From: a candidate division TA06 bacterium SM23_40
Lineage (GTDB): Bacteria; LJUI01; SM1-40
Direction of reading: 5' to 3'
DNA length: 7,018 nt
Assembly (NCBI GenBank): GCA_001303705.1
Contig: LJUI01000135.1
Span: forward strand, 1 to 7,018
Both the position numbers and the translations under genes were made by a program. Within the stretch, counting starts at the first letter, position 1. Each line of letters begins with the position of its first letter. Positions 2,472 to 7,018 of this stretch are shown here, piece by piece. Below the pieces are notes generated by a model, which saw only the letters and a program-made list of their open reading frames with translations, made no database searches and was not told where the DNA came from.

Positions 2472-2556
2472 CCGGAGATGACACGTGAGTGGCGCGGGCC
2501 GGCGCTCGTCCTGTGGTATGGAGAGTGCGCGGACTGAGCAGGTTCTGGAGGATTTC

Positions 2557-3885
2557 GTGATCCGCCCGGTACGATCATTCAGTCTCGTTAGGTCTGCCCT
2601 CGGTGTCCTGCACCTGGTCGCCCTCCTCGCGTGCGTTGGCGCTGCAGACGCACGGATAGAGGGAGAGTTCCAGCTCAACACCTGGGTCGCGGGGGATCAG
2701 GAGCGGCCGGCGGTCGCCTCGCATCCGGCCGAGGGGTGGGTCGCGGTCTGGCAATCTGGTGAACAGGATGGCGACTGCTACGGCGTGTACGGAAGGCTCT
2801 TTGCCCCGGAGGGAGAGCCGGACGGAGAGGAATTCCGTGTCAATGTCGACACGATCGGATGCCAGATGTTTCCCCGCATTGATTCCGACCCGACAGGCAG
2901 GTTTGTCGTCGTCTGGCAATCGTGGGGGCAGGATGGTTCTGGATACGGGATATTCGGGCGTCGCTTCGATGATGAGGGCACCCCTCTCGGGCCGCCGTTT
3001 CAGATCAACATCTGGACTGCCGGCAACCAGGAGCGACCGGCGGTTGCGACACAGAGTGATGGCTCGTTCCTCGTAGTCTGGCAGTCTTCCGCACAGGATG
3101 GATCGAGCTATGGGGTGTACGGGCAGGAATTCGATGAGGAGGGCAACCCGACGGGCGAGGAGTTCGGTGTCAATGTGGAGACCGAGGGGTGGCAGGGCAA
3201 TCCCGATCTGGCCATCGGGCCTGCGGGGACATGGGTTGTTGTCTGGGAATCGGAGAACGGCGACGGCAATGGGTTCGGTATCCTGGCCAGGCGCTTCGGA
3301 GCCGCGGGCATTCCGCTCGGCCCTGAGATCGCAGTCAACGAGCACCTCATCAATGATCAGATCCTCCCCGCTGCGGGCGTCGATAGCCAGGGCAACCTCA
3401 TCGTCGTCTGGTCGTCGGAGGATCAGGATGGCCATCGGTTCGGCGTCTATGCGAGGCGGTTCTCGTCCGAGTTGGTGCCCCTGGGCGAAGAATTCCAAGT
3501 GAATACCTACACCTACAAGGATCAGATGGGCCCGAGCGTGGCCGTGACCCCTGATGGGCAGTTCGCAGTCCTCTGGATGTCATCGTTTCAGGACGGGAGC
3601 GGTCTGGGAGTATTCGGTCAGGTCTATCTGGCCAACGGGCAGCCGTTGGGAAGCGAGTTCCAGGTGAACGAGTATACCGATCTCTATCAGTCATTCCCCC
3701 GGGCGGCGTGCGATACAGGATGTCTGGTCATCGTCTGGCAGTCCGATGTTCAGGACGGGGACGGGTACGGTATCTGGGCTCGTGCTTACCAGATGGCCGA
3801 GCTGGGTGGGGACAGTGAGAGGATCGCGCGGCCGCACGGAGCGCAACATGCCGGGACGGGATCGAATCTGCCCGCGAAGGAATAG
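2557..3885 (+). CDS. Secreted seven-bladed beta-propeller protein
   Basis: A 442-residue exported protein made almost wholly of repeats. After a signal peptide (RPVR start, hydrophobic ALGVLHLVALLACVGA, ADA site near residue 32) come seven consecutive units of exactly 55 residues, each following F-Q-V-N-x-x-T-x-x-x-Q-x-x-P-x-V-A, then VVVWQS, QDGxGYGI, a basic GRRF and GxPLGxEF. Seven units of four short strands fit a seven-bladed propeller, usually a binding or scaffold fold. QDGDG-like loops may bind calcium (inference). A ~24-residue polar tail follows. I prefer GTG 2557 (GGAGG 5 nt upstream) because it gives a normal-length signal. In-frame GTG 2485 also has a GGAG 7 nt upstream and would add 24 residues before the signal. 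The next gene starts 2 nt past the stop, so the two are probably cotranscribed. Ligand unknown. Confidence 0.85.
   Translation: MIRPVRSFSLVRSALGVLHLVALLACVGAADARIEGEFQLNTWVAGDQERPAVASHPAEGWVAVWQSGEQDGDCYGVYGRLFAPEGEPDGEEFRVNVDTIGCQMFPRIDSDPTGRFVVVWQSWGQDGSGYGIFGRRFDDEGTPLGPPFQINIWTAGNQERPAVATQSDGSFLVVWQSSAQDGSSYGVYGQEFDEEGNPTGEEFGVNVETEGWQGNPDLAIGPAGTWVVVWESENGDGNGFGILARRFGAAGIPLGPEIAVNEHLINDQILPAAGVDSQGNLIVVWSSEDQDGHRFGVYARRFSSELVPLGEEFQVNTYTYKDQMGPSVAVTPDGQFAVLWMSSFQDGSGLGVFGQVYLANGQPLGSEFQVNEYTDLYQSFPRAACDTGCLVIVWQSDVQDGDGYGIWARAYQMAELGGDSERIARPHGAQHAGTGSNLPAKE
2668..3822 (+). repeat. Seven 165-bp in-frame repeats (propeller blades)
   Basis: The residue following the Glu or Pro of the EF/PF/EI landmark recurs every 55 codons, seven times, giving units starting at 2668, 2833, 2998, 3163, 3328, 3493 and 3658 with no insertion or deletion between them. 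The most constant parts are VWQS, QDG and G-I/V-x-G/A-R. Blades 1 and 3 share W-x-A-G-x-Q-E-R-P-A-V-A, while 2 and 4 share V-N-V-x-T, which hints at duplication of a two-blade block. The last unit decays after WARAY. Confidence 0.85.
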
Positions 3886-3887
3886 AC

Positions 3888-4154
3888 GTGAGGAGAGCGA
3901 TGCTAAGATTGGTCCTTATCCTGCTCACCTGCTTGCTGACAGCCCCTGCCGTCTGCTGCGCACAGTCGGTCTTCATCTGGAAGATGGAGACCGAGTCAAT
4001 CGTCGATCCGGACGGCGGCGGGTCGGTGCAGCAAGATTATGCTGTGAAGCGTGCACTCGACGAGCTGGAGCTCGTCTATGAGGTGGGTAGAGATCTCCCG
4101 GAAGATCTGTCGCCGTACCGGGTCATCTTCGTCCTCATGGGATGGTGGTGCTGA
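3888..4154 (+). CDS. 5' part of exported protein interrupted by in-frame TGA
   Basis: The first 88 codons of a gene that is open through codon 357 but for a TGA at codon 89. The N-terminus is a Sec signal (MRRAMLRLVLILLTCLLTAPAVCCA, cleavage probably before QS). Then comes the start of an alpha/beta domain (VFIWKMETE, a helix with ALDELELVYEV, and strand YRVIFVLMGWW), which stops in mid-fold. The start is GTG 3888 with GAAGGAA 5 nt upstream; ATG 3900 with AGGAG 4 nt upstream is about as good and does not change the product's nature. It lies 2 nt past the propeller gene. An 88-residue product would be a signal peptide plus a third of a domain, so it is not a natural end. Recoding, nonsense mutation and sequence error are weighed in the findings. 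Confidence 0.7.
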   Translation: MRRAMLRLVLILLTCLLTAPAVCCAQSVFIWKMETESIVDPDGGGSVQQDYAVKRALDELELVYEVGRDLPEDLSPYRVIFVLMGWWC

Positions 4155-4205
4155 GGCGGGGGCGGAGCTACGATTGCTCCGGAGGAGCAATTGCGATTGA
4201 CCTCG
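4152..4205 (+). other. In-frame TGA with SECIS-like hairpin
   Basis: TGA at 4152-4154 is in the same frame as both flanking coding parts (Trp-Trp-Cys before, four Gly after). Downstream, ATTGCTCC (4173-4180) pairs perfectly with GGAGCAAT (4184-4191) around a GGA loop; a G-U and a C-G pair extend it to ten. The loop begins 26 nt past the TGA and has G at its first two positions, within the usual description of bacterial selenocysteine insertion elements. TGAGG (4152-4156) can also pair with CCTCG (4201-4205), closing a larger arm at the TGA. The element also contains GGAGGAG (4181-4187), a ribosome-site-like sequence 9 nt before TTG 4197. The structure is seen; its function is inference. Confidence 0.4.
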
Positions 4206-4961
4206 TTCCTCGACGATGGCTGCGGCCTGTACATCGAGGGGAATGACTTCGGCATGCACCATCACGCGTGTTCGCTGTACGGGTACTTCGGCTGCGCATA
4301 TCTCGGCGATGGCAACAACTACTACAACGTCGCCCGCCTCGACGGTCAGGCCGGGAGCCTGGCAGAGGGTATGGTCTTTCACATGCTCTATGGTCAGGAG
4401 CCCGACATATTTCCCGACGAAATAGGCAATGCCGGCGGCGCTCTGTTGTTCTTGTCTCAGGACGGCATCGGCCGCGGCGTGCAGCACAGTCCTCTGGGGT
4501 ATGAGTATCGGGCGATCCACCTCACCGTGCCCTTCGGCGCCCTTATCGACGAGGAGTCCACCAAGTCTCAGCTCATGGCTCGATATGTCGACTTCCTCTG
4601 GAGCACAATCCACGTCGGGGTGGACCCGGATACGACGCTCATCCCCCAGGGCGGGATTCTCGAGTACGACTGGTCTCTGGTGAACAACTCCGGTGTGCCT
4701 CAGTCGGTCTGGGCACGATCCCGCGTGAGGCTCCCCGGGGGGACGGTCCTTCCCCTCCTCGGGCCGGTTCCGGTCACCCTCGGGCCCGGGCAGCAGGTGA
4801 GCGGACACCGGGTGCACGGGGTCCCGGCAAACGCGCCGATCGGTGAGTATGTGTACATCGTCGAAGTCGGTGTGCCGCCCGACAGCCTCATCGACCAGGC
4901 CAGATTCGCGTTCAGCGTGGAGAGCGGGATGAGAGTGGATGGCGCTTCTGGTTCCGACTGA
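4191..4961 (+). CDS. 3' part of interrupted protein: alpha/beta domain plus Ig-like end
   Basis: About 256 codons open from the TGA to a TGA stop at 4959-4961, in the same frame as the 5' part. The first ~140 residues complete the alpha/beta domain (EEQLRLTSFLDDGCGLYIEGNDFG; AGGALLFLSQDG), with a layout reminiscent of ThuA- or glutamine-amidotransferase-like folds; that likeness is tentative. Residues ~143-244 form an Ig-like domain (DPDTT, LPGG, LGPGQQ, HGVPANAPIGEY, VEVGVPP, FAFSVE) that matches the end of the next gene motif for motif. This part lacks its own signal peptide. It could start alone at TTG 4191 or 4197 behind GGAGGAG, but that would split the domain at a beta-strand and leave it in the cytosol, so one long protein is the likelier ancestral form. 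No further lesion is seen downstream, so any inactivation is recent or the TGA is read through. Confidence 0.7.
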   Translation: MRLTSFLDDGCGLYIEGNDFGMHHHACSLYGYFGCAYLGDGNNYYNVARLDGQAGSLAEGMVFHMLYGQEPDIFPDEIGNAGGALLFLSQDGIGRGVQHSPLGYEYRAIHLTVPFGALIDEESTKSQLMARYVDFLWSTIHVGVDPDTTLIPQGGILEYDWSLVNNSGVPQSVWARSRVRLPGGTVLPLLGPVPVTLGPGQQVSGHRVHGVPANAPIGEYVYIVEVGVPPDSLIDQARFAFSVESGMRVDGASGSD

Positions 4962-5139: not shown

Positions 5140-6234
5140 ATGAAGTGGGCAGTGGCGATAGCGTGTGCGGCTCTGATCCTTGCGCAGGCCGCATCCGGAA
5201 CCATCATCCGCGTTCCGGAAGACTACTCGACGATTCAGGCCGGGATCAACGCGGCCTCGTTCGGGGATACGGTCCTGGTCGGGCCAGGGCTGTATGAGGA
5301 GACGATAACTCTTGCCTACGGGGTGTACGTGACGAGCGAATACGGACCTGCCTACACGGAGATCACCGCACACGGTCATATCATAACCGGAGCGGACAGC
5401 AGCGTGTTCGAGGGTTTCCGCGTCACCAACGACGGCCTGGGGACCAGCTGGGGGTACGGGTGGTCTGAGTCGACTACGATCATCCGCCGCAATGTCTTCA
5501 TCGGCCACTACGTGGGCCTTCACTGCGGGCAGACGGGAAGTGCGGAGACGATCGTCAACAATGTGATAACCGATAATGCGCATAGCGGTATCACGTTCGG
5601 ATGGGATGCGGCGCCGATTATCGAGAACAACATCGTCTACGACAACAATGCTGGCCTACATCACTACGGTACGGGATACGCGCCGACGATCGACTACAAC
5701 GACGTCTGGAACAACGTCACTAACTACAGCAACGTGACGCCCGGCCCCAACGACATCAGCGCCGATCCGAATTTCCTCAACACGGCCAAGCGAGACTGGA
5801 GGCTCCTCTGGCCTTCTCCCTGCATCGATGCGGGCAATCCGGCTACACACTATAACGATCCGGATGGGACGAGGAATGACATCGGCGCGTACTACTTTCA
5901 TCAGGGAGGGCCGGCCGCGATCTACCTCACTCCGGATACGACGACCGTCGCGAGGGGGGGCTCACTGGGGGTGACCTACACTGCGATCAACCCAAGTCCG
6001 ACGCAGCCCCTGTCGTTCTACGCGAAGACAGAGGCGACGCTCCCGAACGGTAATCCCTTCCCGGTCTTCCTGAAACAGGCGGGTCTCGGTCCGGGGGAGA
6101 CGAAGCAGGTGTACATAACGCACACGGTCCCCATGGCGGCTCCGCTCGGGCTCTATCTGTACACCACCTATATCGGGGTGCCGCCCAACACGCTGTGGGA
6201 CACGGATGTCTTCCCATTCAGCGTAGAGCCGTAG
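5140..6234 (+). CDS. Secreted right-handed beta-helix protein with Ig-like C-terminus
   Basis: A 364-residue exported protein. Signal peptide: residues 1-17 (MKW, hydrophobic AVAIACAALILAQA), cleaved near AQA. Residues ~21-253 are a pectate-lyase-like right-handed parallel beta-helix. It opens with IIRVPEDYSTIQAGINAA and GDTVLVGPGLYEE, the usual entry of this family, continues with N-rich rungs (IVNNVITDNAHSGI, IIENNIVYDNNAGL) and closes with SPCIDAG...DPDGTRNDIGAYYF. Residues ~260-363 are an Ig-like domain close to that of the preceding interrupted gene. Such helices bind or cleave polysaccharides or simply form surface scaffolds; no catalytic set is evident, so a lyase role is not claimed. 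ATG 5140 has GGAGG 6 nt upstream and starts the signal, so it is preferred over ATG 5095. It lies 178 nt past the interrupted gene and is followed by a strong terminator. Confidence 0.85.
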   Translation: MKWAVAIACAALILAQAASGTIIRVPEDYSTIQAGINAASFGDTVLVGPGLYEETITLAYGVYVTSEYGPAYTEITAHGHIITGADSSVFEGFRVTNDGLGTSWGYGWSESTTIIRRNVFIGHYVGLHCGQTGSAETIVNNVITDNAHSGITFGWDAAPIIENNIVYDNNAGLHHYGTGYAPTIDYNDVWNNVTNYSNVTPGPNDISADPNFLNTAKRDWRLLWPSPCIDAGNPATHYNDPDGTRNDIGAYYFHQGGPAAIYLTPDTTTVARGGSLGVTYTAINPSPTQPLSFYAKTEATLPNGNPFPVFLKQAGLGPGETKQVYITHTVPMAAPLGLYLYTTYIGVPPNTLWDTDVFPFSVEP

Positions 6235-6623: not shown

Positions 6624-7018
6624 ATGAAATACCCTGTGAGGGCTGCCTGGTTCGGCGGCATCGCGCTCATCATTTCAGGCTCCTGGGCCATCTCGACGCC
6701 GCTCGTCCAGTATGCGGCGGCCGGGGAGTATGCGACGCAGAATGAGTCGGCAGGTGCGGAACGTGCGTACGATGGTCCTGCCTATGCGGATACGTCGGCA
6801 GGTGAGGAACGTGCGTACGAGGGTCCTGCATATGCGGATGAGTCGGCAGGTGAGGAACGTGTGGACAAGGGTCCTGCGTATGCGGATGAGTCGATAGGTG
6901 AGGAGCGTGTGGACGAGGGTCCTGCGTATGCGGATGAGTCGGTGGGTGAGGAACCGGGGCATGAAGAGCCGGCATATACGATTGAAGGGATCGAGGTCAT
7001 CGCCTCTCCCATCATCGA
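6624..7018 (+). CDS. N-terminus of probable TonB-dependent receptor (partial)
   Basis: The first 131 codons of a gene cut by the window edge. ATG 6624 has AAGGAG 10 nt upstream. Residues 1-33 form a Sec signal (MKYPVR, hydrophobic AAWFGGIALIISGSWAIS, AAA cleavage site). Residues ~34-121 are an acidic low-complexity stretch holding five 16-residue repeats. Then comes YTIEGIEVIASPII, which resembles the TonB-box and plug entry of outer-membrane receptors. With the B12-type riboswitch directly upstream, a BtuB-like cobalamin or cobinamide importer is the best guess. The barrel and most of the plug lie outside the window, so the family call is moderate. The repeats would lie in the periplasm between the signal and the TonB box, where they could act as a flexible reach or as a binding segment. 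Confidence 0.6.
   Translation, partial: MKYPVRAAWFGGIALIISGSWAISTPLVQYAAAGEYATQNESAGAERAYDGPAYADTSAGEERAYEGPAYADESAGEERVDKGPAYADESIGEERVDEGPAYADESVGEEPGHEEPAYTIEGIEVIASPII
6747..6986 (+). repeat. 48-bp tandem repeat, five copies, in frame
   Basis: Five head-to-tail 48-bp units start at 6747, 6795, 6843, 6891 and 6939, encoding variants of SAGEERVDEGPAYADE. Units 2 and 3 differ at about four bases; the first unit is slightly diverged and the last strongly so (SVGEEPGHEEPAYTIE). The unit is a multiple of three, so copy-number change by slippage keeps the receptor in frame. Diverged ends with uniform middle units are usual for arrays that expand internally. Confidence 0.85.

Follow-up and report, generated by a model that had tools for sequence, protein, structure and literature searches.

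Evidence for a family of exported selenoproteins with a fixed selenocysteine and a movable cysteine partner in a candidate division TA06 bacterium and in Calditrichota

Introduction

How is a TGA codon read when it stands alone within an otherwise intact gene? Such a codon is found at positions 4152-4154 of the window, a stretch of 7,018 nucleotides that forms contig LJUI01000135.1 (C99) of the candidate division TA06 bacterium SM23_40. The genome, termed G000 here, is a fragmented draft of 189 contigs and is about 90% complete. A first-pass annotation made from the sequence alone regarded the codon as a candidate for selenocysteine (Sec). The conservation of the TGA among relatives, a covarying hairpin downstream of it, the presence of sel genes in the genome and selection on the downstream codons all support that reading, and the TGA is very probably decoded as Sec.

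The gene and its in-frame TGA

The frame at 3888-4961 of the forward strand contains 357 sense codons and is interrupted by a single TGA at 4152-4154; a second TGA, at 4959-4961, closes it. The likely start is the ATG at 3900, for which inspection of the sequence revealed a likely ribosome-binding site, AGGAG, at 3891-3895 of the same strand. The internal TGA is codon 85 when counted from this ATG and codon 89 when counted from the GTG at 3888, which is the numbering of the first-pass annotation, and it is the only internal stop in the frame, just as described there. Read through the UGA to the terminal TGA, the gene at 3900-4961 (forward strand) would encode a selenoprotein of 353 residues. 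A Cys codon (4149-4151, forward strand) lies immediately 5' of the Sec codon (4152-4154, forward strand), and Cys precedes the TGA in all three paralogs of the genome. Between relatives, dN is smaller than dS on both sides of the TGA in several pairs, which indicates purifying selection in a qualitative sense, dS being saturated in several pairs.

The upstream gene (2485-3885) encodes an exported protein composed of short repeats of the VWQSxxQDGxGYGIFGR type and has no Pfam match. It ends 15 bp before the ATG of the selenoprotein gene, and the two genes may be co-transcribed. The gene at the right edge of the window starts with tandem repeats of about 60 bp at 6712-6960 (GPAYADESAGEERVDE-like units).

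Conservation of the TGA in a family of relatives

Two paralogs encoded on contig C75 of the same genome are 43% identical to the window protein. In both, a single in-frame TGA stands at the corresponding codon, also after Cys, and the hairpin is retained; the local motif is GWWC-TGA in the window gene and one paralog and GWYC-TGA in the other. An alignment-based scan detected five loci in Calditrichota-type metagenome genomes, all with one TGA in the motif CPG-TGA-GGGTPAS. Searches of 39 Calditrichota genomes identified 15 members in seven genomes. Each of the 15 exceeds 210 bits and has a single TGA, whereas none of the weaker Calditrichota matches (below 90 bits) has a TGA, and at the Sec site the weaker matches that were aligned show neither Cys nor TGA. 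Wider sampling added one gene of G468 and two genes of G530 with TGA in the same column, the motifs being UGSC and CU.

The family has 21 members in ten genomes, three in G000 and 18 in nine others (seven Calditrichota, G468 and G530), with up to five members per genome, and spans at least three separate bacterial lineages. Every one of the 21 carries exactly one TGA, always in the same alignment column, in a domain free of any other internal stop. The genomes concerned are all drafts or were assembled from metagenomes, and G000 is the sole genome of its phylum among those searched. The relatives came from the alignment-based scan and from whole-genome searches; plasmid records, a single-sequence scan of genome contigs and a viral-contig scan yielded none.

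A close relative of the G468 and G530 members, L110 (G330:C197), is missing its N-terminal portion as far as the Sec codon; it was treated as a truncated gene or an assembly break and left out of the member counts. At both L110 and L102 (G468:C188), the end of the immediately preceding frame encodes an FmdB-like zinc-ribbon protein with an SVKTxKKTW C-terminus. A homolog in G120/G302 (about 37% identical, 110 bits) was rejected as a member, having neither Cys nor TGA at the site.

The first-pass annotation had proposed that homologs should show Cys or TGA at this column. The close relatives all have TGA, but Cys at the Sec column was not found in any relative, and the distant homologs have neither. 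The tree of the sequences has at least three label changes under midpoint rooting and is compatible both with one gain of the Sec form plus losses and with several gains.

A covarying hairpin downstream of the TGA

A hairpin of the bacterial SECIS type is located at 4171-4193 of the forward strand (CGAUUGCUCC-GGA-GGAGCAAUUG). The 5' arm (4171-4180) and the 3' arm (4184-4193) form a 10-bp stem with one G-U among its pairs, and the GGA loop (4181-4183) begins 26 nt past the TGA. Loop and spacing agree with the first-pass description, and its stem of 8-10 bp is now placed at 10 bp. The published bSECIS model has a loop of 3-9 nt with G in its first two positions, a stem of 4-16 bp, a spacing of 16-37 nt and a minimum free energy of at most -7.5 kcal/mol (PMC13188914). 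The window hairpin, with its GGA loop, 10 bp, 26 nt and -12.6 kcal/mol, falls within all of these limits, and several Calditrichota hairpins miss the energy limit of that model.

Taken by itself, the window hairpin is modestly above chance (z -1.9), and 8 of 200 shuffled sequences fold equally well. Comparison turns the hairpin into decisive evidence, because the 21 relatives retain both the TGA and the hairpin, as the first-pass annotation had suggested checking. When all 21 members are centred on the 3-nt loop, the six inner pairs are in register and 123 of 126 are formed. Among 20,000 shuffles of the arms, none attains 123 pairs (mean 79.7, maximum 104). If the centre is moved by 1-15 nt, 18-54% of the pairs form; this control retains the relatedness of the sequences, which the arm shuffles ignore. 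For Calditrichota alone, 87 of 90 inner pairs are formed against a shuffle maximum of 81.

The paired positions vary in sequence. The third pair is T-A, C-G, G-C or T-G, and in the third copy of G000 a C-G pair is replaced by G-C with both of the encoded amino acids altered (IAPxEQ to IGPVDQ). The 3-nt loop is GGN, GAT or GTC, and the distance from TGA to hairpin is nearly constant (23 nt in most members; 17, 20 or 26 nt in the others). The fifth pair is mismatched in two hairpins, both of G148, and the closing pair of another, that of G147:C38, is A-C.

Selenocysteine machinery and gene neighbourhood

The first-pass annotation had objected that no sel genes are in view. These genes are located elsewhere in the genome: G000 encodes tRNA-Sec with anticodon UCA, SelB, SelA and SelD, with SelA beside SelB and SelD beside tRNA-Sec. 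Because TGA is an ordinary stop in other genes of G000, where it terminates SelA, GlmS and SelD, the codon is not reassigned genome-wide. SelD itself (G000:C58, L032:370-1470), directly after tRNA-Sec, is apparently a selenoprotein whose active-site motif, CAGUASK, is encoded with an in-frame TGA (CAG-TGA-ASK).

Each of the seven Calditrichota genomes with members encodes both SelB and tRNA-Sec, and no TGA member occurs in the genomes of this phylum for which neither was found (e.g. G149 and G153). Many genomes encode the machinery but no member of the family. In six of the seven Calditrichota genomes with members, a member lies close to sel genes. In G145, G147, G150 and G151 a family gene comes after selB and an ftrB-selD frame; in G152 it is one gene further from selB-(ftrB-selD), and in G148 it stands directly behind selA and tRNA-Sec. 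The window copy has no sel-gene neighbours. At L098 (G145:C288), L099, L117, L118 and L119, a ferredoxin-thioredoxin reductase-like frame apparently continues into SelD across an in-frame TGA (CPG-TGA-ASK), suggesting that a putative FtrB-SelD fusion selenoprotein is encoded next to selB in Calditrichota.

Export, predicted fold and the Cys-Sec pair

Inspection of the translation shows an N-terminal signal sequence (MLRLVLILLTCLLTAPAVCCA) at 3900-3962 of the forward strand, and family members have a hydrophobic leader, in keeping with the exported protein foreseen by the first-pass annotation. A type IX secretion sorting domain forms the C-terminus of the two long Calditrichota forms that were tested. 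Because of the leader and this sorting domain, the proteins are considered to be exported. The window protein ends in a C-terminal beta domain (4617-4930, forward strand), which was delimited from match lists within G000 and belongs to no Pfam family. A beta domain of this kind, about 110 residues long, occurs in about 60 other places or proteins of G000, including the next gene of the window (5860-6228), and is perhaps a sorting or surface-attachment domain.

The Cys-Sec pair is carried by a domain at 3966-4604 (forward strand), for which a glutamine-amidotransferase/ThuA-like fold is predicted from an AlphaFold model and comparisons with the PDB (VIA-align Z about 16). The same fold is seen in both models, one built for the window protein (pLDDT 67) and the other for the Sec domain of a Calditrichota member (pLDDT 79). 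VIA-align Z scores are 16-17 to 3soz, 2gk3, 3rht and 5xb7, and Foldseek matches include the ThuA-like structures 4e5v and 4jqs; a sequence search matched no solved structure. The Cys-Sec loop, which is poorly defined in both models, is placed after the third core strand. The first-pass annotation had located the break just after a predicted strand, and in the predicted structure the residue indeed falls in the loop that follows strand 73-79. Class I glutamine amidotransferases have a catalytic Cys-His-Glu triad at the nucleophile elbow. In the sequence alignment of the present family, nearly all members have the conserved, Cys-free motif [YF]xEGN[DN] after the fourth strand.

The Sec column is among the few invariant columns of a 19-row alignment. 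The partner Cys is near Sec in 21 of 21 members, although its position relative to Sec varies (-1, -2, -3 or +3), and the motifs seen are CU, DCU, GCGU, CPGU, CNTU, CPSU and UGSC. No Cys-containing form of this family was found, whereas most known selenoprotein families include one, which is a point against the Sec reading. The fixed Sec with a movable Cys suggests a Sec-Cys redox pair, and for the same reason the Sec residue itself appears to be important. Such a redox role is somewhat more probable than its absence, its basis being the resemblance of the motifs. The variable spacing (CU, CxU, CxxU, UxxC) round a fixed Sec offers a direct test of the role of Sec in catalysis.

How the TGA is read

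A nonsense mutation or a sequencing error in a gene that is decaying or misassembled would need only a single substitution, and the window does come from a fragmented draft genome. However, two diverged paralogs and 18 genes from nine further genomes each have this TGA once, always in the same column, while purifying selection persists downstream and the hairpin covaries. The probability of such a lesion is next to nil. Translation of the UGA as Trp, Cys or Arg, through a reassigned code or leaky readthrough, would likewise hold the downstream frame under selection, and the evidence is genomic throughout. It is nevertheless extremely unlikely, since TGA terminates not only the three genes named above but also the window gene itself, tRNA-Sec(UCA) and the three Sel proteins are encoded in the genome, the hairpin fits the published bacterial model, and the family is linked to sel genes in Calditrichota.

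During Sec decoding, UGA competes with the release factor, and some truncated product is expected. This leaves some room for the view that the UGA is mainly a regulated stop, the exported peptide of 84 residues being a product in its own right and the full-length protein being made only when selenium is plentiful. Such a role is very unlikely, since the short product would end in the middle of the predicted fold and the fixed Sec column with its movable Cys suggests that the Sec residue matters.

Sec decoding, which we infer from the comparison of relatives, would proceed as follows. The hairpin at 4171-4193 would recruit SelB, which would deliver Sec-tRNA(UCA) to the UGA at 4152-4154, and the terminal UGA of the same gene would halt translation as usual. 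In the exported product, the loop behind the third core strand of the glutamine-amidotransferase/ThuA-like domain would hold the Cys-Sec pair. This pair would presumably cycle between the selenol/thiol and selenenylsulfide forms, and the protein may serve as a redox or electrophile-reducing (or metal-capturing) centre outside the cytoplasm.

The chances are slightly better than even that these features belong together, i.e. that a Sec family free of Cys counterparts and exported (by a type IX signal in Calditrichota) bears a Cys-Sec pair on a glutamine-amidotransferase-like fold and is encoded by a gene that travels with selenocysteine genes. If true, this would be a new chemistry for an extracellular selenium enzyme and possibly a main reason why these lineages keep selenocysteine.

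Comparison with known systems

The Sec domain has no significant match among the models of Pfam and of NCBIfam 2026, and none of the 119 prokaryotic selenoprotein families in the 2026 catalogue fits it (PMC13188914, Table 1; compared through Pfam and NCBIfam models). Literature searches on Calditrichota selenoproteins, type IX-secreted selenoproteins and glutamine-amidotransferase-like selenoproteins found nothing relevant; they covered a minority of subscription papers and no bioRxiv preprints, and an earlier description is possible. Because no model matches and no catalogued family fits, the putative exported selenoproteins are regarded as a new family, absent from the sources searched. They add an undescribed multi-copy family in poorly studied lineages, whose genes are split by annotation that reads UGA as a stop. 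Predictors based on Cys homologs probably miss the family because no Cys version was found. The homology module of deep-Sep relies on Cys homologs (PMC12013277) and is expected to miss its members.

The decoding mechanism is apparently nothing new. As in SECIS-directed insertion by SelA, SelB, SelD and tRNA-Sec in other bacteria, there is a UGA, a small G-bearing loop 16-37 nt downstream and the full machinery; the difference is that the published energy limit is not reached by some of the Calditrichota hairpins. The only catalogued selenoprotein of the glutamine-amidotransferase type is the CTP synthase C-terminal region-related family (NF004836), which has a GxUxG motif, Cys homologs and a COG0504/PyrG domain (PMC13188914, PMC12013277). 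The present proteins do not match NF004836, and they differ in being exported and in having Sec near Cys in the loop after the third core strand. They share a predicted fold with ThuA-like and class I glutamine amidotransferase-like proteins, but there is no Pfam match and the identity to the structures is about 10-18%; the Cys-Sec loop is present in the new family and absent from the distant homologs aligned. Adjacent Cys-Sec or CxxU motifs also occur in SaoC, HgcA, MbdU, GrdA and AhpD-like selenoproteins (PMC13188914, Table 1). Such CU and CxxU redox-type motifs are shared with the window family, whereas the families themselves are unrelated, and none of their NCBIfam models matches it.
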